From IMG/VR virus record IMGVR_UViG_3300014913_001094, positions 27,454-91,453 of that record: a stretch of DNA of 64,000 nt; one strand, given 5' to 3'. The position numbers were made by a program, and so were the translations under genes. The notes beneath the pieces are model-generated. The model was not told the DNA's origin and searched no databases. It saw only the letters and a list, made by a program, of their open reading frames with translations. Of the stretch, positions 13,190-60,088 are shown piece by piece; position 1 is the stretch's first letter; each line of letters starts with the position of its first letter. The DNA is from a virus.

Positions 13190-13198
13190 GGAGTAGAA

Positions 13199-13438: not shown

Positions 13439-13451
13439 GAGGATATAGATC

Positions 13452-14336: not shown

Positions 14337-14352
14337 GTAAAAAGGAAAGAAA

Positions 14353-15804: not shown

Positions 15805-15807
15805 AAA

Positions 15808-17448: not shown

Positions 17449-17449
17449 T

Positions 17450-18790: not shown

Positions 18791-18806
18791 TCCAGGAAGA
18801 GGAAAG

Positions 18807-24395: not shown

Positions 24396-27300
24396 ATGAC
24401 TACTGTCAGCATATGTATGATTGTTAAGAATGAGGAAGAGGTCCTTGCACGATGCCTCAAATCTCTCGGTAATTTTCCTGATCAATTAGTTATAGTAGAC
24501 ACAGGTTCAATAGATAGAACAATTGAAATTGCAAAGGAATTTGGAGCTGAAATTCATCACTTCGAATGGATACGAGACTTTGCCAAAGCGCGTAACTATT
24601 CCTTTAGTAAGGCAACTTGCGACTATGTTTTCTGGCTTGATGGCGACGATGAAATTGCACCAGAAGAGCTTGAAAAGCTAATGACTCTCAAATCTAATCT
24701 CACCAAAGATATGTATCTAATGGTTTATGATTACTTCCAAGATGCAGACGGTAATCCTAAATGTGATCTTTGGAGAGAGCGCCTTGTAAAACGAGAGTTG
24801 GGATTGAAGTGGCGCTATCCAATTCACGAATGTATCCCTATGGATCAGCGTCCTCTTGAAACAGAGCAAGTTCCAATTCGAATTACACACAAACGAACAG
24901 AGGCTGGATTTGCTAGCGACCTCAGCCGTAATATAGATATTCTTGAAAATGCTGTAAGAGGCGATTATGCCGACGATCCTCGTGTTAGATATTATTTAGC
25001 TAAAGAGATTCATGACAATAGAGATTTTGAAAGAGCATCAAGAGAGTACACAAAGTTTCTTAATATGAATGCCGGCTGGTATGAAGATAAATTATATGCA
25101 CAATTTAAATTAGCTCAGTGTTATTATGAAATGGGCTGCGACAAACAAAGGCAAGTAGAGAAATTTGAAAAGCAAGCAAGAGAAGCAAAGAATAGTAAGA
25201 AGCGAGAACAAGCAACAAGAGCAGCTAATCGCCGCAAGAAGCAGGTAAGTATACAGCATGATAATGCAAGAAAAGCCGCAAAGCAAGCGATTAAAAGCGA
25301 TTCTCAATTTGCAGAGCCATACTATGTTCTTGGTCAACTTGCAATGGATGAGCAAGATCATGATGAAGCCATCTACTGGTTTGAAAAAGCGTTTAGACCA
25401 TTTCCTAATGTTCTAAGTCCTATTCGAAGAGACTTTTATACATGGATGCCAGCTCTTCAGTTATGTGTATGTCACAGTAACCGTGGTGACTATGAACAAG
25501 CAAGCTATTACAATGAACAAGCTGCCAAGGAAAATCCACAACATTCTTCTATTATTCATAATACGAAATATTTTGCTGAGAAGCTTGAAGAAAAAACGCA
25601 AAGAAAAACTCCAGAAGGAGATATTTCTGTTAAGTTGAATCTTGGTAGTGGAAATAAAAGATACAAAGATTACACGAGTTGTGATCTGTTTCCAGGAGCA
25701 GAAGTAGATGAAGTATTTCCCCTAAATGATATTCCATATGAAGACCAAACCGTAGATGCAATTCATAGTGAACATTCTCTTGAGCATCTTCGTCATGTCG
25801 ACGCAAGGTCAGCCATACAAGAATGGGCACGAGTTTTGAAGCCAGGTGGAGAGTTGCATCTTCAGATTCCAGACCTTGAAGAGTGTTGTAGAAAATATAT
25901 AGAGGCAGTACAAAACGGAGATCGAAGACTACAACAATGGTATATGTATACAATATTCGGTATACAAAAATCACAAGCCGACGAGCCGGATGAAGGTCAA
26001 ATTCATTATACAGGATTTAATTTGGCTGAGATTTTAGACTTACTTAAAGATGCTGACTTCATAATAGATTATTATGGAAAATACGATGGACATAGTACGC
26101 CGTCTCTTGAGATAAGAGCTGTTAAAGCAATCGGTTCAATCAGAATAGGATGGTTGGGTCAAACATGTCTTGAAAGTCCACAGTATAGAATTCGAACACA
26201 CCATATAGATAGATGGCTTCGCAGCAGAGGATATCGTACAGAGATCTCCCAAAAAGATCAAAAGTATGACACTGTGATTGCTGATAACGGTACACCATAT
26301 AGGACAATACAACAATACAAGAAAGAGGGTTCAAGAGTAATTCTCAATTTATGTGAAGACTATGACACAATGCTTTCTAAAGAAGAGATGAAAGTAGAAC
26401 AAAGAAGATATGAGGTTGTAGATCTTATAGTATGTTGCTCTCATGCCCTAGCTGAGAAGTTGAAAAAATATAATACTGTTGTAATAGAAGACGCAGTTGA
26501 AGTCGATTTTAATTTAAACTGCACTTATGAAAACAAAGAACAATTGACAGTTGGTTGGATCGGTATGGGTGGTAATGTCGTTCATGCAGAAAGACTGCGT
26601 CCACTAATTGAAGAGCTAGGATATAAGCTTGTCACAATTCATGAACACGATAATGCAGATGTAAAGTGGGATTTGAACACTTGGCAACAAGAGTTAGCAA
26701 AATGTGATATGGCAATAGCTCCAATTGATCATCATAAGCAACCCAGCAAATCAAATAATAAACTGACAACATATATGGCTCTTGGTCTTCCTACTGTCGT
26801 CAGTCCACTAGATGCATATAAACACGTTGTTGATAATGGTCCTTCTAATTATCCATTTTACATTGCATATAATGATGAAGGATGGAAACATTGTTTGGCT
26901 TGTCTAGGAAATGTTGAGCATCGAAGAGAAATGGGATTTGACGCAAAAGAAAAAGCAAAAGAATATAGCCTTGATGCAATAGGTCAGAAATGGGTAGATG
27001 TCTTAATTGAAACTGACTGGATGAGCGATGAAGATTGGGATAAGTTATCTGTATCATCACTCGAAAGATTATATGAAGACGAAGATAGAGCAGAACAACT
27101 TGTTGATATAATTATTCCTACATATGGTAAAGATGATTATCTTCAAGCATGTATCAATAGCATTAAGACATGTACAACTGACTATCCATATAATATTATA
27201 GTTGTTGATAGCCTAAAGCTGGGACTGAATTTTTCTCAAGCAGTAAATCATGGAATTAGACAATCAACAGCATCGCATGTATGTATTATGAATGACGATG

Positions 27301-28280
27301 TAATAGTATCAAAAGGATGGTTAAAGCCATTGCTTGAAGAGTTAAAAGATGATGTTGGTTTTGCGAACCCATTGAGTAATTGCGACAAGGGATGGTTACA
27401 TAATTATGATCTTAAAGCAGGTGAAGTAAATCTGCTTCCTGGCGTTCATAAGCTAGGCGAGGTTGATCCATATGCAATTTATGATTTTAAATCTCCTTCT
27501 ACAAAAAGATATAAACGAGATTGGCTTCCTTTATACTGCACTTTAGCAACAAAAGAAGCTATTGAAAAAATAGGATATCTCGATGAAGAGTTTGAAACAG
27601 GAAGTGAAGATTTAGATTATTGTAAGAGAGCAGAAAAGCTTGGAATAAAATGTGCAGTAGCAGAAGATTCGTTTGTGTTTCATTTTGGAGGAGTGAGTCG
27701 CAAAGCACATGAAATGGAAGATCGTAGTGTTCATCAAGAAGAAGACACAAAGAATCAGAACAGAATTGGATTTAAATACAATCGTCCGCTCGTTGTAATC
27801 CAGTCAGGATTAGCCTATGAGGACTGGGATGCGAATACGTTAAGAGAAAAGGGTTGTGGTGGTAGTGAACTAGCTGCTTGTATGATGGCAGAAAATTTTG
27901 CTAAGCAGGGATACAGAGCGGTAGTATTTGCTCAAACAGGAAAACCGAAGCAGGTAATTAATCAAGTAGAGTGGTACGATCAAAGTGAGTGGTTGAATTT
28001 CATCGACATGAATCATATTAGTATCTGCGTTGTTTCGCGCTATGCAAACTATCTTGAAGATTCAATAAGAGCAGATCAGCTATGGCTCTGGACGCATGAT
28101 ATTTTTGCGATGTGTAGTAAGGTTGGAGATGTCGACTTAGTTCAAAAGAATTACGATAAGCTGACAGGAATTTTTGTATTATCCAAATGGCATGCCTGCT
28201 TTATGGCTGATTACCATGGGATATCAACAGAAAAGACATGGGTTACAGGAAATGGTATAAATTTGAAGGGAAGTGAATAA
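24396..28280 (+). CDS. Giant multi-module glycosyltransferase/methyltransferase
   Basis: A 1294-residue protein with at least five enzyme modules. Module 1 (about 1-230): GT2, opening VSICMIVKNEEEVLARCLKSL, metal site WLDGDDE. A TPR-like helical part follows (about 225-395). Module 2 (about 411-575): class I methyltransferase, LNLGSGNKRYKDY and WARVLKPGGELHLQIPD. Module 3 (about 577-890): GT-B-like, IRIGWLGQTCLESPQYR to YMALGLPTVVSP. Module 4 (about 900-1125): GT2, IIIPTYGKDDYLQACINS, CIMNDDV. Module 5 (about 1130-1294): only the N-half of a GT4, KGCGGSELAACMMAENFAKQG, ending GNGIN. The matching C-half is encoded by the next ORF. AGAGGAG site at the start. It may assemble several sugars plus a methyl cap processively. 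Confidence 0.88.
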   Translation: MTTVSICMIVKNEEEVLARCLKSLGNFPDQLVIVDTGSIDRTIEIAKEFGAEIHHFEWIRDFAKARNYSFSKATCDYVFWLDGDDEIAPEELEKLMTLKSNLTKDMYLMVYDYFQDADGNPKCDLWRERLVKRELGLKWRYPIHECIPMDQRPLETEQVPIRITHKRTEAGFASDLSRNIDILENAVRGDYADDPRVRYYLAKEIHDNRDFERASREYTKFLNMNAGWYEDKLYAQFKLAQCYYEMGCDKQRQVEKFEKQAREAKNSKKREQATRAANRRKKQVSIQHDNARKAAKQAIKSDSQFAEPYYVLGQLAMDEQDHDEAIYWFEKAFRPFPNVLSPIRRDFYTWMPALQLCVCHSNRGDYEQASYYNEQAAKENPQHSSIIHNTKYFAEKLEEKTQRKTPEGDISVKLNLGSGNKRYKDYTSCDLFPGAEVDEVFPLNDIPYEDQTVDAIHSEHSLEHLRHVDARSAIQEWARVLKPGGELHLQIPDLEECCRKYIEAVQNGDRRLQQWYMYTIFGIQKSQADEPDEGQIHYTGFNLAEILDLLKDADFIIDYYGKYDGHSTPSLEIRAVKAIGSIRIGWLGQTCLESPQYRIRTHHIDRWLRSRGYRTEISQKDQKYDTVIADNGTPYRTIQQYKKEGSRVILNLCEDYDTMLSKEEMKVEQRRYEVVDLIVCCSHALAEKLKKYNTVVIEDAVEVDFNLNCTYENKEQLTVGWIGMGGNVVHAERLRPLIEELGYKLVTIHEHDNADVKWDLNTWQQELAKCDMAIAPIDHHKQPSKSNNKLTTYMALGLPTVVSPLDAYKHVVDNGPSNYPFYIAYNDEGWKHCLACLGNVEHRREMGFDAKEKAKEYSLDAIGQKWVDVLIETDWMSDEDWDKLSVSSLERLYEDEDRAEQLVDIIIPTYGKDDYLQACINSIKTCTTDYPYNIIVVDSLKLGLNFSQAVNHGIRQSTASHVCIMNDDVIVSKGWLKPLLEELKDDVGFANPLSNCDKGWLHNYDLKAGEVNLLPGVHKLGEVDPYAIYDFKSPSTKRYKRDWLPLYCTLATKEAIEKIGYLDEEFETGSEDLDYCKRAEKLGIKCAVAEDSFVFHFGGVSRKAHEMEDRSVHQEEDTKNQNRIGFKYNRPLVVIQSGLAYEDWDANTLREKGCGGSELAACMMAENFAKQGYRAVVFAQTGKPKQVINQVEWYDQSEWLNFIDMNHISICVVSRYANYLEDSIRADQLWLWTHDIFAMCSKVGDVDLVQKNYDKLTGIFVLSKWHACFMADYHGISTEKTWVTGNGINLKGSE

Positions 28281-28885
28281 TGTCAATTGAGAATCCTAAA
28301 TTCATCTATTCCTCCTCTGCTGATAGAGGGCTCGATACACTTCTTTATTTATGGCAATTTATTCGTAAAGAGTTTCCAGAAGCAACCTTAGATGTTCTAT
28401 ACGGTTTTGAAAATTGGAAAAAGTCGATTCTTGCATCTGGAAATGAACAACAGAAGCAGTGGATGGAGTCAATTGAAGAAGGATTAAATCAACCTGGTGT
28501 CACCAACCATGGTCGTGTAAGTCAGGATGAGTTAGCTAAATACTGGCAACAGATGGATATATGGGCCTATCCAACAAGATTCACCGAGACATACTGCATA
28601 ACTGCGCTTGAGGCACAACTCTACAGAACAGCAATTGTCACAACTCGTCTTGCTGGTCTTATTGATACAGTTGGTGATCGTGGTATCTTGATTGATGGAG
28701 ATGCTTATACTAAAGAATATCGTGAACAATTTCTCAGTGAAGTTTTTGCAATTTTGCGTGATGATGAGCGTAGAGAAGTTATGTTAGATAAAGCAGAAAA
28801 ATGTGCCAAAAAACTAACATGGTCAAATCGTGCAAAAGAATGGACTGATGTATTTAAACAAAATGGTCTAACTTTTCCGAAATAG
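28280..28885 (+). CDS. C-terminal half of a split GT4 glycosyltransferase
   Basis: A 201-residue protein that looks like the donor-binding half of a GT-B enzyme: FIYSSSADRGLDTLLYLW at the start, VLYGFENW, and the donor-site segment TYCITALEAQLYRTAIVTTRLAGL near 115. Its ATG shares a base with the TAA of the giant gene (TAATG), and a weak GAAGGGA site lies upstream. Aligned against the usual GT4 layout, it continues directly from the last residues of the preceding protein. It may be translated by reinitiation and pair with that protein. A single-base change at the junction would fuse the two. Confidence 0.82.
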   Translation: MSIENPKFIYSSSADRGLDTLLYLWQFIRKEFPEATLDVLYGFENWKKSILASGNEQQKQWMESIEEGLNQPGVTNHGRVSQDELAKYWQQMDIWAYPTRFTETYCITALEAQLYRTAIVTTRLAGLIDTVGDRGILIDGDAYTKEYREQFLSEVFAILRDDERREVMLDKAEKCAKKLTWSNRAKEWTDVFKQNGLTFPK

Positions 28886-29306: not shown

Positions 29307-34052
<4,746 letters not shown>

Positions 34053-34063: not shown

Positions 34064-37000
34064 ATGGTGATCGGTCGCACAATAGATCTACGAAACAACA
34101 CAATAAGTGATATTCTGATAGAAGACTTAGGTGTCATTCTACCGGCAAACCTCACTTCCAATACCACTAATGTTGTAAGGATAACAGACTTTGTCCAAGC
34201 TGATACTCTTGATTTTTCACAAGATCTAAGAAGTCTCATTACCAGTGGGCAGGTGAGCGTAAACGGACACAATGGTACTGGAGACGGAACGGCTACGACT
34301 AATCTAGAAATAGCGGAGAGTCTTGATGAAGTTTCAATCACCACTATTCGTTCCTCTGCTGAAGATTTTGAACATCTTGATAAAGGAGGCCTAAGTCTCC
34401 TTGTAACAGGCGGACATTATAATGTTGGTGGAGTTCATGGGGTTGCACCTAGTACTACCTTAGTTCTTACTGATAACGCAACTAATTATATTTATGCTGA
34501 TCCTGTAGGTGGAACGATAGCCTTCAGTACAATTGGTTTTCCTGATAATTCAACACCTCTTTGGACAGCAACAACCTCCGGTGGAGATATAGATAGCACA
34601 TTCGATCATAGAACATTTGTAGTCCCTAATACCTCAGGTGAAACAGGTGTAGCAGGAACAACAGGTGTCCGTGGAGTAACAGGTCTCTTAGGTGAAACAG
34701 GACTAATAGGAGAGACAGGACTTCAAGGACTTCAAGGAACGACAGGCATTCGTGGAGTAACAGGTATCCTTGGTCAAACTGGTGTTCAAGGCGAACAAGG
34801 AACAACTGGAGTTCGTGGAGTAACAGGTATACTTGGTCAAACAGGAATCCAAGGTATCCAAGGTGACACAGGCGTCCAAGGTATCCAAGGTACTACGGGT
34901 GTAGTTGGAACAGCAGGAGACCAAGGCGAGACAGGAATCCAAGGAGACCAAGGTGACCAAGGTGAAACTGGAACTCAAGGTATCCAAGGAGACCAAGGCG
35001 ATACAGGCGTCCAAGGCCTTCAAGGAGACACTGGAGCACTAGGTAACACAGGACTCCAAGGAGCAGTAGGCGATCAAGGACAAACTGGTACACAAGGTAT
35101 CCAAGGTAACGTTGGTGACCAAGGTCAAACTGGTGTTCAAGGAATCCAAGGTAATCAAGGTAATACTGGTAATCAAGGTGATACAGGTGTTCAAGGTATC
35201 CAAGGGATAACGGGACTTGGTACAACTGGTCCAGAAGGACAAACAGGTACTCAAGGCATTCAAGGTACCCAAGGCGATCAAGGTGAAACTGGTGTAGAAG
35301 GACAAACTGGTCCCACTGGTGGAGTCGGAGCTCAAGGTAGCACAGGTCTTCGAGGTGAAACAGGTACTCAAGGCATCCAAGGCAACCAAGGTAACGTAGG
35401 TGCCCAAGGTGAAACAGGCCTTCAAGGCGTCGTAGGTGACGAAGGTCAAACAGGCATCCAAGGACAAACAGGAGCATTAGGTAATACAGGTGCTCAAGGA
35501 GTTCAGGGTAACCAAGGTAATCAAGGCGACCAAGGACAAACTGGTATTCAAGGTAATCAGGGTGCACAAGGTATAACTGGACTACAAGGTAACACAGGTA
35601 TCCAAGGTACCCAAGGAGACACTGGAGCACTGGGCAATACAGGTGCCCAAGGCGAAACAGGTCTCCAAGGTGTCCAAGGTAACCAAGGTACCCAAGGTGA
35701 CACTGGTACTCAAGGCGACCAAGGTGACACAGGTACTCAAGGTACTCAAGGAACAACAGGCGATCAAGGTGACACAGGTATCCAAGGTGAAACAGGAACA
35801 CAAGGTATCCAAGGTGACACAGGTACTCAAGGTATCCAAGGCGACACAGGTGTAGACGGAACAACCGGCGACCAAGGTGAAACAGGACTTCAGGGTGAAA
35901 CTGGTCTTCAAGGTATCATAGGTGATACAGGTACTCAAGGCATCCAAGGAGACACTGGAGCACTAGGTAACACAGGACTCCAAGGAACAGTAGGTGACGA
36001 AGGTCAAACTGGTATTCAAGGTATCCAAGGTAATGTTGGTGATGAGGGACAAACTGGTGTTCAAGGAGTTCAAGGCAATCAAGGTAACACTGGTGACCAA
36101 GGCGATACAGGTGTTCTAGGTCTTCAAGGTACCACAGGTGTTGGTGCAACTGGTCCAGCTGGTCCAGAAGGACAAACTGGTCCTCAAGGTACTCAAGGTG
36201 ACCAAGGTGACACAGGCGTAGAAGGACAAACTGGTCCCGTTGGTGGAGTCGGAGCTCAAGGAGAAACAGGTCCACAAGGATTAACAGGATTACTAGGTGA
36301 GACTGGTCCGTTACAGCAAGGTGAAACTGGCGTAGAAGGACAAACTGGCGTTCAAGGCGTCCAAGGTGACCAAGGTGAAACTGGAACTCAAGGTATCCAA
36401 GGTGATACAGGCATCCAAGGACAAACTGGTGCGCTAGGCAACACTGGTGTTCAAGGAGTTCAGGGTAACCAAGGTAATCAAGGCGACCAAGGACAAACTG
36501 GTATCCAAGGTAACCAAGGTACACAAGGTATAACTGGACTACAAGGTAACACAGGTATCCAAGGTATCCAAGGAGATACTGGTATCCAAGGAGACCAAGG
36601 AGACACAGGTACTCAAGGCATCCAAGGAGACCAAGGTGAAACAGGTACTCAAGGTATCCAAGGAGACCAAGGTGAAACAGGTACTCAAGGTATCCAAGGA
36701 GACCAAGGTGATCAAGGTGACACAGGCATCCAAGGTGACCAAGGTGAAACAGGTACTCAAGGTATTCAAGGTACCCAAGGCGATCAAGGTGAAACTGGTG
36801 CTCAAGGACAAACAGGCGCACTAGGTAATACAGGGGCTCAGGGTACTCAAGGTGACACAGGTACTCAAGGAATCCAAGGCGACCAAGGTGAAACAGGTAT
36901 TCAAGGCATCCAAGGAGACACTGGAGCACTAGGTAACACAGGACTCCAAGGAACAGCAGGCAACCAAGGACAAACTGGCGTTCAGGGTATCCAAGGTAAT

Positions 37001-38974
37001 GTTGGCGATGAAGGTCAAACTGGTGTTCAGGGAGTTCAAGGCAATCAAGGTAACACTGGTGACCAAGGTGGCACAGGTGTTCAAGGTACCCAAGGGATAA
37101 CAGGACTTGGTGCAACTGGTCCAGTTGGTTCAGAAGGACAAACAGGTACACAAGGTACTCAAGGTAACCAAGGCCTCCAAGGTGAAACTGGCGTAGAAGG
37201 ACAAACTGGTCCCGTTGGTGGAGTTGGAGCTCAAGGAGAAACTGGTACCCAAGGAATTCAAGGTACTCAAGGTGACCAGGGCAACACAGGTACTCAAGGA
37301 CAAACAGGTATCCAAGGAGTCCAAGGTGAAACAGGTCTTCAAGGTATCCAAGGCACTCAAGGCAATACTGGTGTTCAAGGAGTACAAGGCAATCAAGGTA
37401 ACCAAGGTAACCAAGGACAAACTGGTATCCAAGGTAACCAAGGTACACAAGGTATAACGGGATTACAAGGTAATACAGGTGTCCAAGGTGCTCAAGGTGA
37501 TACTGGAGCACTAGGTAATACTGGTGCCCTTGGAGAAACAGGTACTCAAGGCATCCAAGGCGACCAAGGCGACCAAGGCGACACAGGCATCCAAGGCGAC
37601 CAAGGCGACACTGGTACTCAAGGTATCCAAGGTATCCAAGGCGATCAAGGTGATACAGGTGCTCAAGGACAAACAGGTGCTCTAGGTAATACAGGTGCTC
37701 AAGGCATTCAAGGTGATACAGGTATCCAAGGTCAGACTGGTACACTAGGTAATACAGGTATCCAAGGCCTTCAAGGAGACACAGGCGCTCAAGGTCTCAC
37801 CGGTCTTCGAGGATTAACAGGTCTACGAGGTCCAACAGGCGTTCAAGGTCTCAGAGGAACAACAGGTGTTCAAGGTGTTATAGGTAATACAGGTATCCAA
37901 GGACCACAAGGACACACGGGTGCAAAAGGTGCCACCGGCTTCCAAGGAATAACAGGTCTCCAAGGACAAACCGGTATCCAAGGAATAACAGGCCTCCAAG
38001 GACAAACCGGTATTCAAGGACAAACCGGTATCCAAGGAGTCCAAGGACAAACAGGTCTCCAAGGTGAAACAGGTCTCCAAGGACAAACCGGTACTCAAGG
38101 TATCCAAGGCGACCAAGGTGGTACGGGTCTCCAAGGAGTTCAAGGTCAAACTGGTGCTCAAGGTCAAACTGGTACTCAAGGCAACCAAGGACAAACTGGT
38201 ACTCAAGGTACTCAAGGCGATCAAGGCGATCAAGGTGAAACTGGAGTACAAGGTCTCCAAGGCGAAACCGGAACCCAAGGTATTCAAGGCGACGAAGGAC
38301 AAACAGGCGTTCAAGGTGTTCAGGGTCTTCAAGGACAAACAGGTGTCCAAGGTATCCAAGGCATTCAAGGTGTCCAAGGCATTCAAGGTGAAACAGGTGT
38401 TCAAGGTATCCAAGGTGACCAAGGCAACCAAGGCAACCAAGGCGACCAAGGTGATACTGGTATCCAAGGACAAACAGGCATTCAAGGTGTCGAAGGACAA
38501 ACTGGTGCTCTTGGACTACAGGGATACACAGGAGTATCAGGTGAAACAGGTGTCCAAGGCATCACAGGATTAGTAGGAGAAACAGGCGCTGAAGGAGTCG
38601 GCAACACTGGCTACGGAACTGGTTCTGGAGGACTACAAGTAATTTGTTTTAGTGATACACGACCTAGTGGAGCGTCATATTTACCTATTGGAGACGCTAT
38701 CAATGCAAAAACAGGAGTACTGCTTCCTGTTGACGTCACTGTCCAATATATAACATGTAAATGGCAAAAAACACAGGACTTCTATGTACGTCTTCGACGA
38801 AACAATGACAGTATAAATATGTATTCATTAAACTGCACAGGAGAAGAGCAATCAGCCCTAGATGTAGGTATTTCGTACACAGCAGGTGATTTTTTACAAG
38901 TCTACTGTGATGAAGTAGACACAAGCATTAATGATCTAGTTGTTTCACTATGGTTCCAATTGGATAATAATTAA
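34064..38974 (+). CDS. Giant collagen-like fibre protein B
   Basis: A 1636-residue protein. Residues 1-60 carry the anchor-like module shared with 38985, 6415 and 6965 (NNTISDILIEDLGVILPAN, then FSQDLRSLITSGQVSVNG). Residues 60-190 form a beta-rich domain (LEHLDKGGLSLLVTGGHYNVG-type sequence, quoted in part). Gly-X-Y triplets fill about 192-1515, with Thr or Gln in most Y positions. One clear register break, GETGPLQQGETG, occurs near residue 747. The C-terminal 120 residues form a beta-rich cap with two Cys pairs (VICFSDTRPSGASYLPIGD). It starts 11 bases after protein A, so the two fibres are probably made in similar amounts. Confidence 0.85.
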   Translation: MVIGRTIDLRNNTISDILIEDLGVILPANLTSNTTNVVRITDFVQADTLDFSQDLRSLITSGQVSVNGHNGTGDGTATTNLEIAESLDEVSITTIRSSAEDFEHLDKGGLSLLVTGGHYNVGGVHGVAPSTTLVLTDNATNYIYADPVGGTIAFSTIGFPDNSTPLWTATTSGGDIDSTFDHRTFVVPNTSGETGVAGTTGVRGVTGLLGETGLIGETGLQGLQGTTGIRGVTGILGQTGVQGEQGTTGVRGVTGILGQTGIQGIQGDTGVQGIQGTTGVVGTAGDQGETGIQGDQGDQGETGTQGIQGDQGDTGVQGLQGDTGALGNTGLQGAVGDQGQTGTQGIQGNVGDQGQTGVQGIQGNQGNTGNQGDTGVQGIQGITGLGTTGPEGQTGTQGIQGTQGDQGETGVEGQTGPTGGVGAQGSTGLRGETGTQGIQGNQGNVGAQGETGLQGVVGDEGQTGIQGQTGALGNTGAQGVQGNQGNQGDQGQTGIQGNQGAQGITGLQGNTGIQGTQGDTGALGNTGAQGETGLQGVQGNQGTQGDTGTQGDQGDTGTQGTQGTTGDQGDTGIQGETGTQGIQGDTGTQGIQGDTGVDGTTGDQGETGLQGETGLQGIIGDTGTQGIQGDTGALGNTGLQGTVGDEGQTGIQGIQGNVGDEGQTGVQGVQGNQGNTGDQGDTGVLGLQGTTGVGATGPAGPEGQTGPQGTQGDQGDTGVEGQTGPVGGVGAQGETGPQGLTGLLGETGPLQQGETGVEGQTGVQGVQGDQGETGTQGIQGDTGIQGQTGALGNTGVQGVQGNQGNQGDQGQTGIQGNQGTQGITGLQGNTGIQGIQGDTGIQGDQGDTGTQGIQGDQGETGTQGIQGDQGETGTQGIQGDQGDQGDTGIQGDQGETGTQGIQGTQGDQGETGAQGQTGALGNTGAQGTQGDTGTQGIQGDQGETGIQGIQGDTGALGNTGLQGTAGNQGQTGVQGIQGNVGDEGQTGVQGVQGNQGNTGDQGGTGVQGTQGITGLGATGPVGSEGQTGTQGTQGNQGLQGETGVEGQTGPVGGVGAQGETGTQGIQGTQGDQGNTGTQGQTGIQGVQGETGLQGIQGTQGNTGVQGVQGNQGNQGNQGQTGIQGNQGTQGITGLQGNTGVQGAQGDTGALGNTGALGETGTQGIQGDQGDQGDTGIQGDQGDTGTQGIQGIQGDQGDTGAQGQTGALGNTGAQGIQGDTGIQGQTGTLGNTGIQGLQGDTGAQGLTGLRGLTGLRGPTGVQGLRGTTGVQGVIGNTGIQGPQGHTGAKGATGFQGITGLQGQTGIQGITGLQGQTGIQGQTGIQGVQGQTGLQGETGLQGQTGTQGIQGDQGGTGLQGVQGQTGAQGQTGTQGNQGQTGTQGTQGDQGDQGETGVQGLQGETGTQGIQGDEGQTGVQGVQGLQGQTGVQGIQGIQGVQGIQGETGVQGIQGDQGNQGNQGDQGDTGIQGQTGIQGVEGQTGALGLQGYTGVSGETGVQGITGLVGETGAEGVGNTGYGTGSGGLQVICFSDTRPSGASYLPIGDAINAKTGVLLPVDVTVQYITCKWQKTQDFYVRLRRNNDSINMYSLNCTGEEQSALDVGISYTAGDFLQVYCDEVDTSINDLVVSLWFQLDNN
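34638..38610 (+). repeat. Collagen-like repeat region B
   Basis: About 440 in-frame Gly-X-Y triplets encoded by short, highly similar units built on CAAGG(T/A), GACACAGG and GGAACTC-type blocks. The repeat composition also creates long artefactual ORFs on the opposite strand. Confidence 0.88.
35024..37790 (+). repeat. Three-copy higher-order repeat of about 925-965 bp inside fibre B
   Basis: The block beginning GGAGACACTGGAGCACTAGG starts at 35024, 35948 and 36914. Each copy then encodes the same order of sub-blocks: GLQG(A/T)(V/A)GD, GNVGD(Q/E)GQTG, a non-repetitive spacer near TTG-GPEGQTG, VGGVGAQG, and NQGNQG-GQTGIQGNQG. Periods are 924 and 966 bases, or 308 and 322 residues, both multiples of three. 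Confidence 0.8.
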
Positions 38975-41234: not shown

Positions 41235-42497
41235 ATGTCTGATTGCTCATGTGGAAGCTGTGGAAGCTCACAACCAGAGCGAATTCGCCTTACACGAAAT
41301 GTCAATGCAAGTTGTCAACCAATTGGTTGCTGTGCTCCAATATCATGTCACTGCACAAGAGCTGACTGGCTTTCTGGCATTGACTGTTGTTGCAGTGGTG
41401 GACAAAGTCTGACAGATTGTGTAGTAGCAATTGAGCAAGGCGCAGTAGGAAAATTGATTGCGATTTTCAGAGATGGAGATGGTGTTTATAGAGATCCATC
41501 TGCACCAAAAATCACTATTAAAGATCCATGTGGTAACACAATCTTATTAAGTCAAGATATGTCTAGAGAAAGTACAGGATTGTACTTCTTCTATTTTGGA
41601 ACCGATGGAACTACGCCTCTTGGAAGATGGTCAGCTCTTGTCACAGGTTCCTTAGGTGGCGTAGCAGTTCATAATGAATGGACCTTTTGTGTATTAACAG
41701 TTGGTTCAATACCTCGAGACGGCTATGGTTGTGACGGCTATGGTAGTGACGGCTATGGAGACGGCTATGGCTGTGATGGCTATGGTGATGGCTACGGTTG
41801 TGATTGTACCAATAATAATTGCTCCTGCTCTAGTGGAGATGTAGGAATATTTGCAGGCAGAGAAAAATGCGGCTTCGACGGTACAAGCAATGATGCTAGC
41901 GGTAAACCAGGTTCAGCAGACGTTCCTTCCACGGGTGGTTGTAGAACAAATCGTAACGAATGTGGCGATGGATTTTGGGATGGAATCAGCTACGAAGAGT
42001 GCTGCGTAGATCCAATTGGTAAACGAGGGCAGTGTATGAAAGATAAAGGTCATGCAATGCTTAGAGTAAGGCTAAAAGATATAGTACCTTCATGCTGGGC
42101 GTTTACAGAAGATGAGCTTGATATGCAATTAGAGTTAGCGTTGAGCGACTTTAACTCTGTTCCAACATTTACACATTTTACATGGGATACGCTAACAGAT
42201 GCATGGCTAGGTGTTATCGTCTTTGGAGCACAAGTATTTGCTCTATTTTCTCAAGGACTAATTGAAGCAGGTCGAGAATTTAACATCACTGACAATGGTA
42301 TTAACTTTGTACCTCCAGCAATATCAGGTTACATGCAAAGCACTGCATCTACTTTGCTTCAGACTTATGTACAGCAAAGAGATGCTATTAAAGCTAATAT
42401 CAAGCCCAATCCAAGTGGCGTTGGAACTTTTAGAGTTCTTTCTGTAGTTCCAACACTTGCAAGACTACGCCACTTAAGAGCCAGACAGATTATGTAG
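41235..42497 (+). CDS. Cys-rich, DGYG-repeat structural protein with Ig-like module
   Basis: A 420-residue mosaic with 27 Cys. Residues 1-62 hold twelve (SDCSCGSCGSS, GCCAPISCHC, DCCCSGG). Residues 65-155 form the Ig-like module (KLIAIFRDGDG, TGLYFFYFG). Residues 160-195 are tandem DGYG units with interspersed Cys (GYGCDGYGSDGYGDGYG). The C-terminal 150 residues (MLRVRLKDIVPSCWAFTEDELDMQLELALSDFN, quoted in part) form a helical domain resembling virion connector or neck-type structural domains, which would fasten it to the particle. AAGGAG site. The Cys-rich part is unusual for a protein made in the cytoplasm. Confidence 0.68.
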   Translation: MSDCSCGSCGSSQPERIRLTRNVNASCQPIGCCAPISCHCTRADWLSGIDCCCSGGQSLTDCVVAIEQGAVGKLIAIFRDGDGVYRDPSAPKITIKDPCGNTILLSQDMSRESTGLYFFYFGTDGTTPLGRWSALVTGSLGGVAVHNEWTFCVLTVGSIPRDGYGCDGYGSDGYGDGYGCDGYGDGYGCDCTNNNCSCSSGDVGIFAGREKCGFDGTSNDASGKPGSADVPSTGGCRTNRNECGDGFWDGISYEECCVDPIGKRGQCMKDKGHAMLRVRLKDIVPSCWAFTEDELDMQLELALSDFNSVPTFTHFTWDTLTDAWLGVIVFGAQVFALFSQGLIEAGREFNITDNGINFVPPAISGYMQSTASTLLQTYVQQRDAIKANIKPNPSGVGTFRVLSVVPTLARLRHLRARQIM

Positions 42498-44130: not shown

Positions 44131-44889
44131 ATGACAAAGCTTATAGCATGTATGCCCGTGCGTAATGAGCAGTGGATCCTTAGCAAAACGCTCACTGATC
44201 TTTCTACCTATGTAGATGAGATTGTGATTGTTGACGACGGATCTACGGACGATACTCCCGAAATAATTCGTAGCTTTCCCAAGGTTACGAAGATTCATAC
44301 TAACCCTCCTGGGACCAAGCCTTTCGGTAACGGACAAGAGTCTGACAACCGCAATAAAACCCTCCAAATGGCTCGTGAACGTAACGCTGACTGGGTTCTC
44401 CAGATTGACGCAGATGAAAGATTCGAGCCGCGATTCAAAGATGAAATCCATAATTTGATTGACCGAGGATGTAGTACCAAATTTAGGGTACTCCATTTCT
44501 GGGAAGATACTAGCCAATTTCGAGTAGATGGCGAGTGGGGCGGATTCTTTAGATACTGTCTATTTCGTCTCAAGCCTCGTATGCGATTCTCACCACAACA
44601 TATCATAGCTACACCCAAGGCTTTTGATCGTAAAAATCGATATAAATCTGATATTAAACTGTTGCATTACGGGTGGATTCATCCACAACAGCGTGAGAGA
44701 TCATTGCTTCGTTACTACGAAGTCTACAAGCTGAAATACCCGGAAAAAACAGTGTCTTTTGAGCAATTTAAAGTGAGTACTGAGATGCAAACAGACCTGC
44801 GAATTGTTAAGCAAGATGCTGAGAATTTAACAACAATTCCGTGGGAGCAAGAAATGGGAGATCTTGATCGGAAAGATTATATATTATGA
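44131..44889 (+). CDS. GT2 family glycosyltransferase
   Basis: A 252-residue GT-A enzyme opening the glycan island. It begins LIACMPVRNEQWILSKTL, has VDDGSTDDT near 37 (UDP-binding Asp) and the metal site LQIDADERFE near 90, then the catalytic part and a C-terminal helical region. It lacks transmembrane segments, so it acts as a soluble transferase. AAAGG site upstream. It overlaps the next gene by 4 bases (ATGA). Donor and acceptor cannot be read from sequence. Confidence 0.85.
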   Translation: MTKLIACMPVRNEQWILSKTLTDLSTYVDEIVIVDDGSTDDTPEIIRSFPKVTKIHTNPPGTKPFGNGQESDNRNKTLQMARERNADWVLQIDADERFEPRFKDEIHNLIDRGCSTKFRVLHFWEDTSQFRVDGEWGGFFRYCLFRLKPRMRFSPQHIIATPKAFDRKNRYKSDIKLLHYGWIHPQQRERSLLRYYEVYKLKYPEKTVSFEQFKVSTEMQTDLRIVKQDAENLTTIPWEQEMGDLDRKDYIL

Positions 44890-46022
44890 GAATTGGATTC
44901 TTTAACATTAGATATCCCAAGGGAATAGGTATATTGTGTGAGGACTTTGCTCGTTTAATAGAATCCAAGGGACATGAGGTATATTTTCTTACCTATCCTT
45001 TAAGTCGTAGACGTCCAGCTCTAATTAGTGACGAGTGGGCAAGAGATAATGTAACAATTATTGAGACATTCGAGCGCAATGCTGTTAAAGTAGATGATGC
45101 TACTGTAAGAGGATGGATTGAGGACAACCAACTAGATGTAGTTTTTACAGCCGAACAGCCTAATAATCTTAACGTATTTCCAATTGCTAAAAAGCTAGGT
45201 GTCTCAACAATCAATTATATTGATATTGAGATGTTTGACCCAACAATTGAGCAATATAAAGATTGTGATATTTTCTTTTGTCCAACTCAACAAGGATATA
45301 ATATACTCAAGGGTTATGAATTTCATAACCTAATGTCATTAAAGTACCATGCAAATGCAAATCAGTATCCATGGTCCTTGAGAAAAGCAGAAGATAAGGT
45401 AGAGTTTGTAATACATGCCGGTTGGGGAGGACAAAATGGTCGCAAAGGAGTTGGTCCAACAATAAGAGCCTTCGCAAAAGCAACGATAAGAGCCTCTGTA
45501 AAAGTAAATCCTTCAAATGCTACATTAACAATTATTACACAAAAGAAATGGAGGACATACGAAGAAGAGTTTAAGAAAATAGTCAGTGAATATTCAAATA
45601 TTTTAATTAAAGAAGTCAACGATACTCAAAATGTATATAATAGCGCTGCCTACGAAGAGGGACATGTAGTAATCCAACCAAGTATGTGGGAGGGATTAGG
45701 ATTAACTTACATCGAAGCAATGATGTCAGGTATACCAGTGATTTCATGCGATGGTCCTCCAATGAATGAATTTATAACACACGGACAAACAGGACTACTA
45801 GTTCCATGTAAAGAGATAGCAGGTAGTGCAATTAAAAAGGGACTACGAGTTCCAGCATTTATTGTAGATGAAGATAGGCTTGCCGAAGCAATTATGCAAT
45901 TTGCAGACAATCCTAAGTTGGTGGAGCAGATGTCTCACAATACTAAGCAAGTATGGGATGGTTATCAAGGATATTGTCAAGGATTTGAAGAAATGTTTGT
46001 TAGGATAGGAAAGCCACTATAA
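44886..46022 (+). CDS. GT4 family glycosyltransferase
   Basis: A 378-residue GT-B enzyme. The N-domain starts MRIGFFNIRYPKGIGILCEDFARLIESKGHEV, quoted only in part (GIGILCEDFARLIESKG), and the donor domain has IHAGWGGQNGRKGVGP near 180 and the EX7E-type motif MWEGLGLTYIEAMMSGIPVI near 262, followed by HGQTGLLVP. Retaining transfer from a nucleotide sugar is expected. Overlaps the genes on both sides by 4 and 1 bases. Confidence 0.85.
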   Translation: MRIGFFNIRYPKGIGILCEDFARLIESKGHEVYFLTYPLSRRRPALISDEWARDNVTIIETFERNAVKVDDATVRGWIEDNQLDVVFTAEQPNNLNVFPIAKKLGVSTINYIDIEMFDPTIEQYKDCDIFFCPTQQGYNILKGYEFHNLMSLKYHANANQYPWSLRKAEDKVEFVIHAGWGGQNGRKGVGPTIRAFAKATIRASVKVNPSNATLTIITQKKWRTYEEEFKKIVSEYSNILIKEVNDTQNVYNSAAYEEGHVVIQPSMWEGLGLTYIEAMMSGIPVISCDGPPMNEFITHGQTGLLVPCKEIAGSAIKKGLRVPAFIVDEDRLAEAIMQFADNPKLVEQMSHNTKQVWDGYQGYCQGFEEMFVRIGKPL

Positions 46023-46858
46023 TGGACCGTTTAAGTATTCTCATTGTCAATCATAATAGGGTTCGATATCTCAAAGCAGCTCTAAAGAGTATTATGTTGA
46101 ATACTGTCACTCCATATGAGCTGTTAATCTATGACAATAAATCTGGTAGACCAGATGTACGATTTCTTCAGAGATTTGAGCGAGAAGCACAAGTACCTGT
46201 AAAGGTGTGGTATGGTCAGAAAAATATAGGAGTATGGCAAGCGTCTAATATTCTAATCTCCAATGCGAGCAGCAGAGAAACTCTTGGCTTTATTAAGTGC
46301 GATAATGATATCATCGTTAAGACAATAGGGTGGGATAAAAAATGGATGCAAGTTGCAGAAGATATTCCTGAAATTGGAATTATAGGAGCAAATGCAGAAG
46401 AGATATCAGTCCGCAACAGTCATATGACTGCTATGAGTCAAAAGGGACATGAGTTACTTGTCAATCATGACTATGGAACAGGTGTTTGTGTCTACTGGCC
46501 AGCAAGGACTTTTAAGGCTCTGGGTTATTATGAGGAGCAATTCGGAAAGATGGGACATTGCGACAAGAGCATAGAAGTTAGATGCAGAGCTATAGGTCAG
46601 AAGTTTGTTTACGACAGAAACGTAACAGTTGCTCGTCAGAAGCCAGGACGAAAAGATAAGTACGGTGGATATCGTAGATGGAAGAATAGATATGTTAAAA
46701 ACAATAGACCTGTTTATGAAATGTTTAAAGGGCAATATTTAGATGGAACAAGATCGCCAGCAATCTGGTATGAAAAATTTAAAGATACAGCACCAGAAGG
46801 TGTTGATTTTACCAAGGAAGAGCCGCTTGTAGACTGGGAAAGTGGTTTACCCAAATGA
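46022..46858 (+). CDS. GT2 family glycosyltransferase (duplicated pair, copy 1)
   Basis: A 278-residue GT-A enzyme: LSILIVNHNRVRYLKAAL at the start, LIYDNKSG near 40, and LGFIKCDNDIIVK near 96 with the DND metal site. GTGVCVYWPARTFKALGYY and GHCDKSIEVRC follow in the acceptor region. It is clearly paralogous to the product of 47367-48275 over the whole length, sharing ETLGFIK, GWxxKW, IGANxE and the final W-x-TG/SG segment. An endonuclease gene now separates the two copies. It overlaps both neighbours. Confidence 0.85.
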   Translation: MDRLSILIVNHNRVRYLKAALKSIMLNTVTPYELLIYDNKSGRPDVRFLQRFEREAQVPVKVWYGQKNIGVWQASNILISNASSRETLGFIKCDNDIIVKTIGWDKKWMQVAEDIPEIGIIGANAEEISVRNSHMTAMSQKGHELLVNHDYGTGVCVYWPARTFKALGYYEEQFGKMGHCDKSIEVRCRAIGQKFVYDRNVTVARQKPGRKDKYGGYRRWKNRYVKNNRPVYEMFKGQYLDGTRSPAIWYEKFKDTAPEGVDFTKEEPLVDWESGLPK

Positions 46859-47370
46859 AAAAAGAATGCAAAAATTGTAATAAGATACGAGAGCACAAAG
46901 GATTAGGGTTATGTGCATCTTGCTACAGGAAGCATTACTTTACTCGGCCTGGAAAACGACAAGAAAGAAGTAAGACCAACAAGAAAAGTCGTGAGAAGTG
47001 CAAGATAGAATGTGTGGAATGCGGGAATGTTCGCTCACATATAGCACAAGGACTGTGTAGTAATTGTTATAATAAGGGGTTATATATGCGACAACCAACG
47101 AAGAGAATGAAATCAATAAGGTCCAGTCTATATGGGAAGAAGGCTACAGCAGCCTTTTATGAGGCTGTAGAGGCGCAAGGTAGCAAATGTCTTATTTGTG
47201 AGGAGACAAAAGATCTAGTACTGGATCATGACCACGAGACTGGTATATTTCGTGGTGCCATATGTCACAAATGTAATGTAGGCTTGGGTATGTTGAATGA
47301 TGATGTAGATATACTGCAGAGAGCACTTAATTATCTCAAAGGATCTTTAGGAAAGGTTACTCTGAAATGA
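46855..47370 (+). CDS. Endonuclease VII-like HNH nuclease
   Basis: A 171-residue nuclease. Two N-terminal zinc-finger-like modules repeat the pattern CxxC...GLCxxCY (CKNCNKIREHKGLGLCASC and CVECGNVRSHIAQGLCSNC), linked by a basic stretch. The catalytic part has CLICEETKDLVLDHDHETG, RGAICHKCNVGLGML and DDVDILQRALNYL, matching the recombination endonuclease VII fold with its DHDH site and zinc Cys pairs. It sits between duplicated glycosyltransferase genes with exact ATGA overlaps on both sides, so it is probably a freestanding homing-type gene that kept translational coupling intact. Confidence 0.87.
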   Translation: MKKECKNCNKIREHKGLGLCASCYRKHYFTRPGKRQERSKTNKKSREKCKIECVECGNVRSHIAQGLCSNCYNKGLYMRQPTKRMKSIRSSLYGKKATAAFYEAVEAQGSKCLICEETKDLVLDHDHETGIFRGAICHKCNVGLGMLNDDVDILQRALNYLKGSLGKVTLK

Positions 47371-48275
47371 ATGTTCAGAAAATTAGCATTCTAATAGTTA
47401 ATTATAATCGTTTAGATTATCTCAAAGGTACTATAGCATCTATTAGAGAACATACAGAATGGCCATTTCATCTTTATATCTGGGATAATGACTCTACAGA
47501 AGAAGGTGTTAAAGATTATCTTGATAAGATTGATCAAAAAGATGATGTTACAGTCTTTCATAGTCCAAAAAATGTTGGAATTTGGAAAGCGTCAAATGAG
47601 TTGATTAGTCGAGCAGCTAATGTTGAGACATTAGGCTTTATTAAGATGGATAATGATTGTATTATAAAGACTCAAGGATGGGCTCGTAAGTGGATTGAAT
47701 GTTGTAATGTTAATAAAGAAGTTGGAATGATCGGTGCGAATATCGAGGGCAAAAAGTCTCGTAGTGCCGATATTGATCCTCTAACTTTAAAAGGTCATAA
47801 AGTATTCTCTCTAACACGAGAAGGAACTGGCGGAGCAGTATATGTTCCAGGTAGAACATTCTGTAGCCTAGGGTTCTACAATGAGGAATATGGAAGATAT
47901 GGCCATGCCGATAAAGATTATGCTCGTCGAGTATTTTGTATGGGACGAAAGTTTGTATATCACTGTGACGTAGAAGTCGATCGCTTTGCAGTAAACAATG
48001 ATGACAATGTAGGTGGCTACAGAGAGCACAAGAACATGTATCTTCGTCGTAACCGTAGACTATATGTTCTTAATAGATATAAATATCAAAGAAAAATAAG
48101 ACCCCTAGCTATTTGGTATAGAAAGTTTCAGAAATCGATACCAAAGAGCGTTCGTAGAGATCCAATGTTTGCCTGGACCGAAACAAACTCAGTTGTTCAC
48201 TGGGATACAGGAAAAGTGTCACAATACATTAGGGATGAAATTGAAAAATACAAGCTTGAAAAGATTAAGAGATAA
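47367..48275 (+). CDS. GT2 family glycosyltransferase (duplicated pair, copy 2)
   Basis: A 302-residue GT-A enzyme: ISILIVNYNRLDYLKGTI, LYIWDNDST near 40, LGFIKMDNDCIIK near 96. GTGGAVYVPGRTFCSLGFYNEEYG and YGHADKDYARRVF occupy the acceptor region. It aligns end to end with the product of 46022-46858, about 24 residues longer at the C-terminus. The ATGA overlap with the endonuclease gene and the next start on its stop codon mark coupled translation. Confidence 0.85.
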   Translation: MNVQKISILIVNYNRLDYLKGTIASIREHTEWPFHLYIWDNDSTEEGVKDYLDKIDQKDDVTVFHSPKNVGIWKASNELISRAANVETLGFIKMDNDCIIKTQGWARKWIECCNVNKEVGMIGANIEGKKSRSADIDPLTLKGHKVFSLTREGTGGAVYVPGRTFCSLGFYNEEYGRYGHADKDYARRVFCMGRKFVYHCDVEVDRFAVNNDDNVGGYREHKNMYLRRNRRLYVLNRYKYQRKIRPLAIWYRKFQKSIPKSVRRDPMFAWTETNSVVHWDTGKVSQYIRDEIEKYKLEKIKR

Positions 48276-49111
48276 TGACTCTAATTTCTGTAATTATTCC
48301 TACCTTTAATAAGTCTCCTCTTGTGTGTGATACGGTAAGAAATCTCCACTCACAAACTCTACAAGACTTTGAAGTAATAGTAGTAGACGACGGCTCAGCT
48401 GATGATACTGTTAAGCAGATGAAGAAGATGCGCAAAGAAGAGCGTCATTTAAAAATTAAAATATTTCAAACAGGAATGTCGGATCAATTTGGAATGTGTC
48501 ATGCTATAAACATGGGATTGAAAAATGCCAGTGGACCTATATCGCTGTTGCTGAATGATGATATTTATTTACATTCTACATGTCTCGAGCAGCATGCGCT
48601 AGCTCACAAACGTATTCGTTCTCGACATGCATTTATAGGTCCACGCTTTAAAAGTCCTCCTTATCAAAGAGGACAATTGTATATTGATAAAGATACGCAG
48701 AGACAGCAGAATCGGCGATACATAGATCGCAGTCAGCCTAAAAAATATGGCTATGGGGCATATCGAAAGAAGATGATGGTGTCGAGCAATTTTTCCATTA
48801 GTACTGATAAGTTGTGTAAAATTGGAGGATACAACCCCTATTTTACACAATACACAGGAGCAATAGATCGTGATGTATATAATAGAATGGTAGATCATAG
48901 AATTGGAACATTCTTTCTTTTTCAAGCTCAAGCATATTCTGTTAATTATGAAAATGATTTATTAAAGCAAACGATGTGGTTAAAAGATACAGAGTTTAGA
49001 GATGGACTTGGAGTAGTTGATTGGAAGCGTCAACAAATGCGCTATACAATTCGTCGAGAACGGAAAGCAAGAAAATATCCACCAGATCCTATCATTAGGA
49101 GGAGAAAATAA
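48275..49111 (+). CDS. GT2 family glycosyltransferase
   Basis: A 278-residue GT-A enzyme: ISVIIPTFNKSPLVCDTV, VVDDGSADDTVKQM near 35, and SLLLNDDIYLH near 91 with an NDD metal site. The acceptor part includes SSNFSISTDKLCKIGGYNPYFTQYTG, quoted in part (DKLCKIGGYNPYF). The C-terminal 40 residues are strongly basic (RRERKARKYPPDPIIRRRK). The start and stop overlap both neighbours by one base. Confidence 0.84.
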   Translation: MTLISVIIPTFNKSPLVCDTVRNLHSQTLQDFEVIVVDDGSADDTVKQMKKMRKEERHLKIKIFQTGMSDQFGMCHAINMGLKNASGPISLLLNDDIYLHSTCLEQHALAHKRIRSRHAFIGPRFKSPPYQRGQLYIDKDTQRQQNRRYIDRSQPKKYGYGAYRKKMMVSSNFSISTDKLCKIGGYNPYFTQYTGAIDRDVYNRMVDHRIGTFFLFQAQAYSVNYENDLLKQTMWLKDTEFRDGLGVVDWKRQQMRYTIRRERKARKYPPDPIIRRRK

Positions 49112-50190
49112 TGAAACGCAAACCTCGAATTATGTCAATGATTGATGCTATTAGCGGTGGCGGCGGCATGGTGGCATATAATATTATTAAAGAACTACCA
49201 CAATATGACCACGTAATAGTAACACCTGGCTTTATTAAATCATGGTCCATAGGTTTACCAAAGTTATTTGCTGATGAGCAAATCTCTGTTGATGTTATCA
49301 GTGCTGGACCAACTCATGCAAAGACAATGCATAAAATACTCAATCAAAAGGTGATGACCTATGATCCAGATATTATTGTTAATCACTGGTGGAAATCTGC
49401 ACAGATACAGAGACTAAATAAATTTGGTAGAACTCGTAAAGTATTTGGTCGTGCAAAGACAGTTCTTGTATCTCACAATAACGATCCATCTCCACCTGGA
49501 TATGATTATTATGTATCTGTATCAAAGCATAATGCGAAGTATCAAGTTTATGCAAATAAAGGGAAGCAGAAGTCAAACCATCAAGTTATTTATAATGGGA
49601 TAGATATTGACAGATTCTCAAGTATTCCTAAGAGGCCAAATAAAGATAAATTTGTAATCGGCCGGGTTAGTTCTTTAGTAAAGTTTAAGGTTCCTAGAGA
49701 TTGGATTAGGTTTGTTAATACATTTAATATTCCGAATCTTGAATGTATTATTGTTGGAGAAGGTGAGAGACGTAGACAATTTCAATATGATATTAATAAA
49801 TTAGGAGCTCAACATAAATTTAAGCTTCCAGGTGAAGTACCACAACTTGGTAATGAGCTTCCACAAGCGCTAGCAGGATTTGACATTCTCTGCTACGTCA
49901 CCGAAAAAACTGAGGCTTTTTCGCTTGCCATCTTAGAAGCAATGGCAGCTGGTATTCCTATTGTAACACAAAACGTGGGTGGAACGCCAGAGCAAGTAAT
50001 TCATGGTCAGACAGGCTTCTTGTGTAGTAGTAGAGCAGAAGTCAAGCAGTACTGTGAGTGGTTATATAATAATCCAAAACAATTATTAATTATGGGACAA
50101 AATGCTCGAAGAAGAGCTCAGGAGCAGTTTACACTTAAGAAAATGGCTGATCAATATGATGAGCTATTCCTGAGGTTACTCCATGAATAA
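49111..50190 (+). CDS. GT4 family glycosyltransferase
   Basis: A 359-residue GT-B enzyme. The N-domain has MIDAISGGGGMVAYNIIKEL (glycine loop), the linker YNGIDIDRFSSIP near 165, and the donor domain has FVIGRVSSLVKFK and TEAFSLAILEAMAAGIPIVT near 267, then GGTPEQVIHGQTGFL. Complete for the family. AGGAGG ribosome site, and an 8-base overlap with the next gene. Confidence 0.87.
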   Translation: MKRKPRIMSMIDAISGGGGMVAYNIIKELPQYDHVIVTPGFIKSWSIGLPKLFADEQISVDVISAGPTHAKTMHKILNQKVMTYDPDIIVNHWWKSAQIQRLNKFGRTRKVFGRAKTVLVSHNNDPSPPGYDYYVSVSKHNAKYQVYANKGKQKSNHQVIYNGIDIDRFSSIPKRPNKDKFVIGRVSSLVKFKVPRDWIRFVNTFNIPNLECIIVGEGERRRQFQYDINKLGAQHKFKLPGEVPQLGNELPQALAGFDILCYVTEKTEAFSLAILEAMAAGIPIVTQNVGGTPEQVIHGQTGFLCSSRAEVKQYCEWLYNNPKQLLIMGQNARRRAQEQFTLKKMADQYDELFLRLLHE

Positions 50191-50917
50191 ATATAAAGTT
50201 TCTGTTGTTATGCCAGTATATAATTGTGTTTTGTTTCTGCATGAGGCAGTTGATGGTATCCTTAATCAAACATTTAAGGATTTTGAATTTGTCATTGTTG
50301 AAGATTGTTCGACTGATGGATCAAAAGAAATTATCAAAGACTATGCTGATAGATATGCAAACATCAAGGTTATATGGCACGAGGTCAACAAGGGCTTAAG
50401 TCGGTCTCTTAATGATGGTCTCGCTGCAGCGTCTGGAGATTTGATTGCAATACAGCATGGGGACGATGTAAGTTTACCACAGAGATTAGAAAAGCAGGTA
50501 GCTTATCTAAAAGAGAACGAAAATGTTCACTTACTAAGTACGTGGGTGAAGTTAATAGATGAACATAGCAAAGCTGCAAGAAGAGATAGTTGGTGGATCA
50601 AGCAAATCAAAGGTACAGCAGATAATCCCGAAGTACTCAAACAAAAGATGTTAGAGATGAATATTTTTGTTCACACGAGTGTAATGTTTCGAAGTTCAGT
50701 AATAGATTCTGTGGGTACATATGGTCTTGATATGGTACCGGCTGAGGATTTTGATCTTTGGTTACGTATTGCAGACAATCATGACTTAGGAATCTTAAGA
50801 GAAGTCCTTTGTTTATATCGTCATCATTCAAATCAAATATCAGGAACAGATTCGGGTAATTTGATGAAAGCAAAGGCAGCAATAGCTATCGAGAGAGCAA
50901 AAGAGAGAAGAAAGTAA
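50183..50917 (+). CDS. GT2 family glycosyltransferase
   Basis: A 244-residue GT-A enzyme: YKVSVVMPVYNCVLFLHEAV, VIVEDCSTDGSKEI near 36, the metal segment IAIQHGDDVSLPQR near 88, and the acceptor part MVPAEDFDLWLRIADNHDLG near 180. This is the common EpsE/WcaA-like arrangement. It ends 4 bases before the next start. Confidence 0.86.
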   Translation: MNKYKVSVVMPVYNCVLFLHEAVDGILNQTFKDFEFVIVEDCSTDGSKEIIKDYADRYANIKVIWHEVNKGLSRSLNDGLAAASGDLIAIQHGDDVSLPQRLEKQVAYLKENENVHLLSTWVKLIDEHSKAARRDSWWIKQIKGTADNPEVLKQKMLEMNIFVHTSVMFRSSVIDSVGTYGLDMVPAEDFDLWLRIADNHDLGILREVLCLYRHHSNQISGTDSGNLMKAKAAIAIERAKERRK

Positions 50918-50921
50918 AATA

Positions 50922-53980: not shown

Positions 53981-53981
53981 A

Positions 53982-54527
53982 ATGGGACACAAATATAAAA
54001 AACCTAGACAGGTAAAAATCGGAAAGAATTCTTATTTTGGTAAGAATCTTCGCGTTATTGAAGGACATTCTCACTGTGTTCAAATTGGTGAATTCTGCTC
54101 ATTGGCTGCTGATATCACATTTTGTATGGTAACAGAACATAATTATCGTCGAGTAACAACCTATCCAGTCAAAATGAAGGTTCTTGGAATGGAATATGGA
54201 GTAGATGAACCAAGGGTTGCCTCTAAAGGTGATGTAATTGTAGGAAATGATGTGTGGATTGGATATGGAGCAACAATACTAAGTGGAGTAAATATAGGTC
54301 ATGGCGCGATCATAGCTGCATATGCCCTAGTGACTAAAGATGTTGAGCCCTATGCAATAGTGGGTGGTAATCCTGCAAAAGTAATTAAGTATCGTTTTGA
54401 ACCTCATCAAATAGAAGCTCTATTAGATATAGCATGGTGGAATTGGTCGATAGAAGTCTTGAGTGAGCGTTGTGATGACGTGTACATGGAGGATATTGAT
54501 GAATTCATCGCCAAATACAAAAATTAG
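53982..54527 (+). CDS. Left-handed beta-helix O-acetyltransferase (CatB/Vat type)
   Basis: A 181-residue hexapeptide-repeat acetyltransferase. Hexad turns are visible from residue 10 to 140 (VKIGKNSYFGKNLRVI, VIVGNDVWIGYGATILSGVNIGHGAIIAAYALV in parts). The catalytic His is likely His53 in TEHNYRR, and the segment PYAIVGGNPAKVIKYRF is the conserved end of the CatB-related group. In this setting it probably adds acetyl groups to sugars; antibiotic resistance is unlikely. It overlaps the next gene by 29 bases. Confidence 0.85.
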   Translation: MGHKYKKPRQVKIGKNSYFGKNLRVIEGHSHCVQIGEFCSLAADITFCMVTEHNYRRVTTYPVKMKVLGMEYGVDEPRVASKGDVIVGNDVWIGYGATILSGVNIGHGAIIAAYALVTKDVEPYAIVGGNPAKVIKYRFEPHQIEALLDIAWWNWSIEVLSERCDDVYMEDIDEFIAKYKN

Positions 54528-57810: not shown

Positions 57811-57821
57811 AAGAGGATAAG

Positions 57822-60087: not shown

Positions 60088-60088
60088 A

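Follow-up and report, generated by a model that had tools for sequence, protein, structure and literature searches.

The collagen-like fibre gene and its surroundings

The window, the whole 64,000-nucleotide stretch analyzed here, corresponds to 27454-91453 in a viral contig of 91,453 bp. Among named phages, Bacillus phage G has the major capsid protein nearest to the one encoded here (53%); the record of that phage differs in holding a single collagen match, within a 211-aa frame. Genes for an HNH endonuclease, a trypsin-like protease and an IMPDH/GMP reductase-like protein are found just after the capsid gene (2181-5090), and a baseplate-wedge-like match to PHROGs (13452-14336) lies upstream of the fibre genes. 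Collagen-like sequence is encoded on the plus strand by three genes: one with a short stretch of 31 triplets (21558-23609), that of fibre A (29307-34052; 1581 aa, about 426 triplets) and that of fibre B (34064-38974; 1636 aa), in which about 438 Gly-X-Y triplets occupy residues 192-1513. Further downstream, a 420-aa protein (41235-42497) includes a short tandem repeat at 41718-41804.

By Pfam, fibre B is a collagen-repeat protein with glycine at every third residue: its match to PF01391 reaches 637.8 bits (E 7.6e-197) against a curated cut-off of 27.2. It also matches tail fibre families in PHROGs, but these matches are driven by collagen composition; we regard it as a putative tail fibre. The collagen rod is flanked by unique domains at both ends. 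The N-terminal domain (34064-34636, plus strand; 191 aa), presumed to be the attachment end, has weak relatives only, and its AlphaFold model (pLDDT 31) is uninformative, with no reliable fold. The C-terminal domain (38597-38974, plus strand), presumably a trimerisation or binding head, is modelled as all-beta (pLDDT 67), with C1q and a TNF-like lectin among its weak, generic beta-sandwich matches.

The Y position of the triplets is glutamine in 52% of cases and threonine in 33%; each chain contains about 144 GXT triplets, and proline makes up 0.9% of the Gly-X-Y residues. We infer a homotrimeric triple helix, in which low proline makes stability a real question. The rise per collagen residue is 0.286 nm; the approximately 1314 Gly-X-Y residues would therefore form a rod of some 376 nm, of which a block of about 300 residues would account for about 84-92 nm. 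The NCBIfam models for the LPXTG-anchored adhesins Scl1/Scl2 (NF038330, NF038329) exceed their cut-off on fibre B through composition; we rejected this assignment, as the protein has no LPXTG motif and ends in ...WFQLDNN. A 609-aa frame on the minus strand (35916-37745), inside the repeat described below, is most likely a side effect of codon repetition.

Gly-X-Y rods with non-collagen domains at both ends have been described in the phage fibre proteins EPclA-D of E. coli prophages, where collagen length varies in multiples of three residues and breaks in the pattern are conserved (PMC3368898, in the excerpts used here). By analogy, fibre B may work like these prophage fibres, but it is far longer (about 1320 collagen residues versus 322 in the longest EPclA protein) and almost proline-free, whereas the same excerpts describe GPK, GPQ and GPA triplets and mention neither a block repeat nor a linked glycosyltransferase (PMC3368898).

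A block of about 100 triplets in three copies

The original prediction placed an ordered set of sub-blocks at 35024, 35948 and 36914. All three starts are exact and in the fibre B frame, and the copies are colinear, each opening with the same 13 residues. Copy 1 (35024-35947, from residue 321) comprises 308 residues and copy 2 (35948-36913, from residue 629) 322, which agrees with the predicted length of 308-322 residues; copy 3 (36914-37789, from residue 951) is shorter, at about 292 residues (876 nt), so that the range becomes 292-322. Copy 2 has an additional local array of 36-nt period and an additional break (GPLQQG, near 36313), and copy 3 is without several segments present in copy 2. 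A one-residue break in the Gly-X-Y pattern (GIT-GL-GTT, 35216-35227) provides a landmark in copy 1, and equivalent breaks occur at about 36140-36151 in copy 2 and 37106-37117 in copy 3; they lie near 35221, 36145 and 37111, that is, 924 and 966 nt apart. Across the three copies, 203 of the 284 common columns are identical in all.

The off-diagonals anticipated near 0.92-0.97 kb in a dot plot of the gene are present: strong lines appear at 924, 957, 966 and 975 nt between copies 1 and 2 and copies 2 and 3, with a further line at 861 nt between late copy 2 and copy 3 and lines at 1881-1899 nt between copies 1 and 3. The best 300-nt window reaches 87.3% identity, at offset 966, whereas shuffling the Gly-X-Y triplets 200 times with their phase kept gave a mean of 67.2% and a maximum of 73.3% for windows of the same size. 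Matching continues upstream of copy 1 (34849-35148 versus 35773-36072, 73%), and at offset 924 it begins at 34969; the phase of the block is therefore conventional. The fibre B gene contains nested repeats, from 9 to 108 nt, along its whole length. Fibre A has no block repeat of comparable size, with a best 300-nt window of 65% against a shuffle maximum of 62%, and no exchange between the two fibre genes was detected, the best 180-nt match between them (74%) being near background for such sequence.

Chance block repeats could conceivably converge out of low-complexity collagen sequence, since just 85 distinct protein triplets occur among about 440 in fibre B. We regard such convergence as extremely improbable, because the observed identity lies beyond every triplet shuffle. 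Furthermore, where two copies have the same residue their codons agree in 69-74% of positions, against 54% expected from the codon usage of the gene; this excess of 15-20 points at silent sites contradicts convergence and argues for duplication at the DNA level. Seven of the nine exact repeats of at least 36 bp in the gene are in block register, the longest being 56 bp at offset 966. Tandem duplication of segments of about 100 triplets is thus well supported by comparison of the copies; the unequal recombination invoked in the original prediction is one plausible route to it.

As the contig is metagenomic, strain variants of a single block might also have been joined in tandem during assembly. 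This artefact seems very unlikely: the copies differ by roughly 10-25% with distinct small indels, the reading frame is open throughout all three, and independent contigs from other samples carry blocks of other sizes. The divergence of the copies at silent sites further indicates that the duplications are not recent. Continuing exchange among them leaves no clear sign in the alignment, the mosaic signal being weak (permutation p 0.047, with sites treated as independent).

The '90 nm steps' in fibre length of the original prediction are conjectural: we found no copy-number variant, and the copies have diverged at silent sites and differ by smaller indels as well. The fibres of three contigs of another phage (G031, G032 and G035) are equal in length, which is a weak test given that these contigs are near-identical. 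A search for close relatives of fibre B returned two weak loci for the N-terminal domain and none for the C-terminal domain, and relatives of the terminal domains were not found among named phages. Whole fibre B returned nothing in a tblastn search of named phages, probably owing to the low-complexity filter.

Block repeats in other viral collagen genes

We surveyed 57 collagen frames from viruses, collected with two composition patterns, calling a block repeat when identity was at least 0.75 and at least 0.08 over the shuffle maximum. Eight frames lie above this threshold, with offsets ranging from 315 to 1851 nt. The fibre of contig G026 has a two-copy block at offset 1017 nt (85% versus a shuffle maximum of 63%), and G030 has many blocks, one of them 92% identical at offset 1593. 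Block repeats are, on this sequence survey, a recurrent growth mode of viral collagen fibre genes and not unique to fibre B, which is among the stronger cases. At the three nearest capsid relatives, whose contigs are fragments, no fibre comparable to fibre B was found; only one of these fragments (G003) encodes collagen, and this is short and different.

Several viral collagen frames stand out in other respects. Frame L373, one of the eight, lies in a 178-kb contig (G127) and has a block that matches at 99% over 300 nt (offset 1026 nt), which is probably a recent duplication. The collagen frame of G030 (IMGVR_UViG_3300020183_000008, 2-19780) has at least 6593 residues and 2040 triplets with 0.2% proline, and runs past the contig end; if folded as collagen, its rod would measure at least 1.7 micrometres. 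A collagen-like frame in G031 (96325-99801) has 294 triplets with 0.0% proline within them.

We may also hypothesize that the block is simply a by-product of a repetitive gene, in which random slippage and duplication act at all scales, without selection on block size or on the spacing of hinges and with no role for glycans. The nested repeats found throughout fibre B fit this explanation, as do block sizes that vary from fibre to fibre around no evident preferred value, and the divergence of the copies with their differing small indels. On the other hand, the landmark break is retained in all three copies, and a purely neutral view leaves unexplained the glycosyltransferase linkage presented below. 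We consider this explanation quite possible, while leaning somewhat against it.

Linked glycosyltransferases and a model for the fibre

Upstream of the two fibre genes, on the same strand, lies a gene for a multidomain glycosyltransferase of 1294 aa (24396-28280; GT2, TPR, methyltransferase, GT4-like and GT2 domains), followed by a GT4-type glycosyltransferase (28280-28885). In contig G026, whose capsid protein is only 35% identical, a counterpart colinear with both lies upstream of the fibre, the GT4-type enzyme being fused to the multidomain protein. The solved structures closest to the N-terminal domain are those of GmaR (E 9e-23) and SunS (6e-12), which we take to be a flagellin O-GlcNAc transferase and a peptide S-glycosyltransferase, respectively. 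Assignment to the SunS peptide S-glycosyltransferase family itself (TIGR04195) was rejected, the score of 49.2 bits against an equivalog cut-off of 350 indicating a related domain only.

All eight best viral relatives of the multidomain enzyme, representing six lineages, have a collagen frame of at least 74 triplets within 10 kb; five of the six lineages are independent, as G026 entered via the collagen pattern and helped build the query. By comparison, collagen occurs within 10 kb of 4 of 72 weaker glycosyltransferase relatives and at 3 of 80 capsid-relative loci. In six further contigs, found by the collagen pattern and having a good match to the glycosyltransferase profile, the enzyme lies 0.6-9 kb from collagen. 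At the level of gene order, multidomain glycosyltransferase and collagen genes thus show a conserved linkage in large phages. No collagen was found near the bacterial relatives of the enzyme. The converse association is loose, since most contigs with Gln/Thr-type collagen show no such enzyme: of 50 examined, many of them short, 11 match the glycosyltransferase profile at all and about 7 match it well. Any GT2 gene over cut-off occurs in 20 of 50 Gln/Thr-type and 14 of 49 proline-type collagen contigs, and is not clearly commoner in the former. Low proline, first suggested as a marker of the glycosyltransferase, was not upheld in this wider comparison of contigs. In two Chitinophaga loci (L260 and L261, 12311-21706), a relative of the enzyme faces a frame of 3131 residues that lacks collagen repeats.

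A glycosyltransferase gene adjoining a threonine-containing collagen gene has a precedent in C. difficile, where sgtA lies immediately upstream of bclA3 and its product puts O-GlcNAc on collagen-repeat threonines (PMC7157674). BclA3 is a spore protein with GPT triplets and SgtA a 358-aa enzyme (PMC7157674), whereas we are dealing with a phage fibre of GXQ and GXT triplets and a 1294-aa multidomain enzyme, the modification being predicted from genes alone. Fibre B combines two attributes of a BclA-type system, GXT triplets (threonine, 33% of Y) and a linked glycosyltransferase. BclA is a GPT-rich spore-surface protein whose collagen region varies in length. In Bacillus anthracis and B. cereus it is a glycosylated bacterial collagen (PMC8968730); unlike the system described here, it involves no phage fibre and no multidomain enzyme of this kind. 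By analogy with sgtA-bclA3, fibre B is probably glycosylated on its Y-position threonines by the adjacent enzyme.

The sugars could have other destinations. Downstream of the fibres, on the plus strand, a glycan island (44131-63678) encodes many GT2 and GT4 enzymes, methyltransferases, hexapeptide transferase-like proteins, a pyruvyl transferase and a sugar aminotransferase, as well as an Endonuclease VII-like protein (46855-47370). Its sugars may instead be destined for DNA, capsid or host envelope. The glycosyltransferases as a whole might likewise modify such targets, their proximity to the fibre reflecting a shared adsorption-gene region: phage glycosyltransferases with these targets are known (cited in PMC12619734), and the Chitinophaga relatives have no collagen nearby. 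Against this, the long viral relatives are all near collagen, and among solved structures the N-terminal domain is nearest to GmaR and SunS. We therefore view other targets as possible but rather unlikely.

Our preferred reading, held with moderate confidence as a whole, is that of a collagen tail fibre lengthened by tandem blocks and glycosylated by the adjacent enzyme. The rod would have grown by tandem duplication, at least twice and in frame, of a block of about 300 residues; imperfect repeats most likely recombined with one another, and the copies then diverged and acquired smaller indels. The adjacent glycosyltransferase would initiate O-glycosylation of the Y-position threonines, and the downstream glycan island possibly extends the sugars on the fibre. 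The repeat would then govern both how long the fibre is and how many sugar sites it bears, and the one-residue breaks that recur in the copies could serve as hinges about 90 nm apart.

More tentatively, and with some doubt on our part, this reading may extend to a group of large phages with nearly proline-free collagen fibres, from hundreds of nm to more than 1.7 micrometres long, whose threonines would be glycosylated by a dedicated neighbouring phage enzyme and whose length and glycans would grow via blocks of about 100 triplets. Many proline-poor collagens are threonine-poor, such as that of L304, in which the Y position is 92% glutamine and 2% threonine; threonine sugars are therefore not a general substitute for proline.

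Block duplication within a fibre gene is a straightforward genetic means of arriving at fibre length. These phages would also provide, if the linked glycosyltransferase does modify the fibre, a natural test of what stabilises a near-proline-free collagen and of virion glycosylation as a trait that serves adsorption or shielding.
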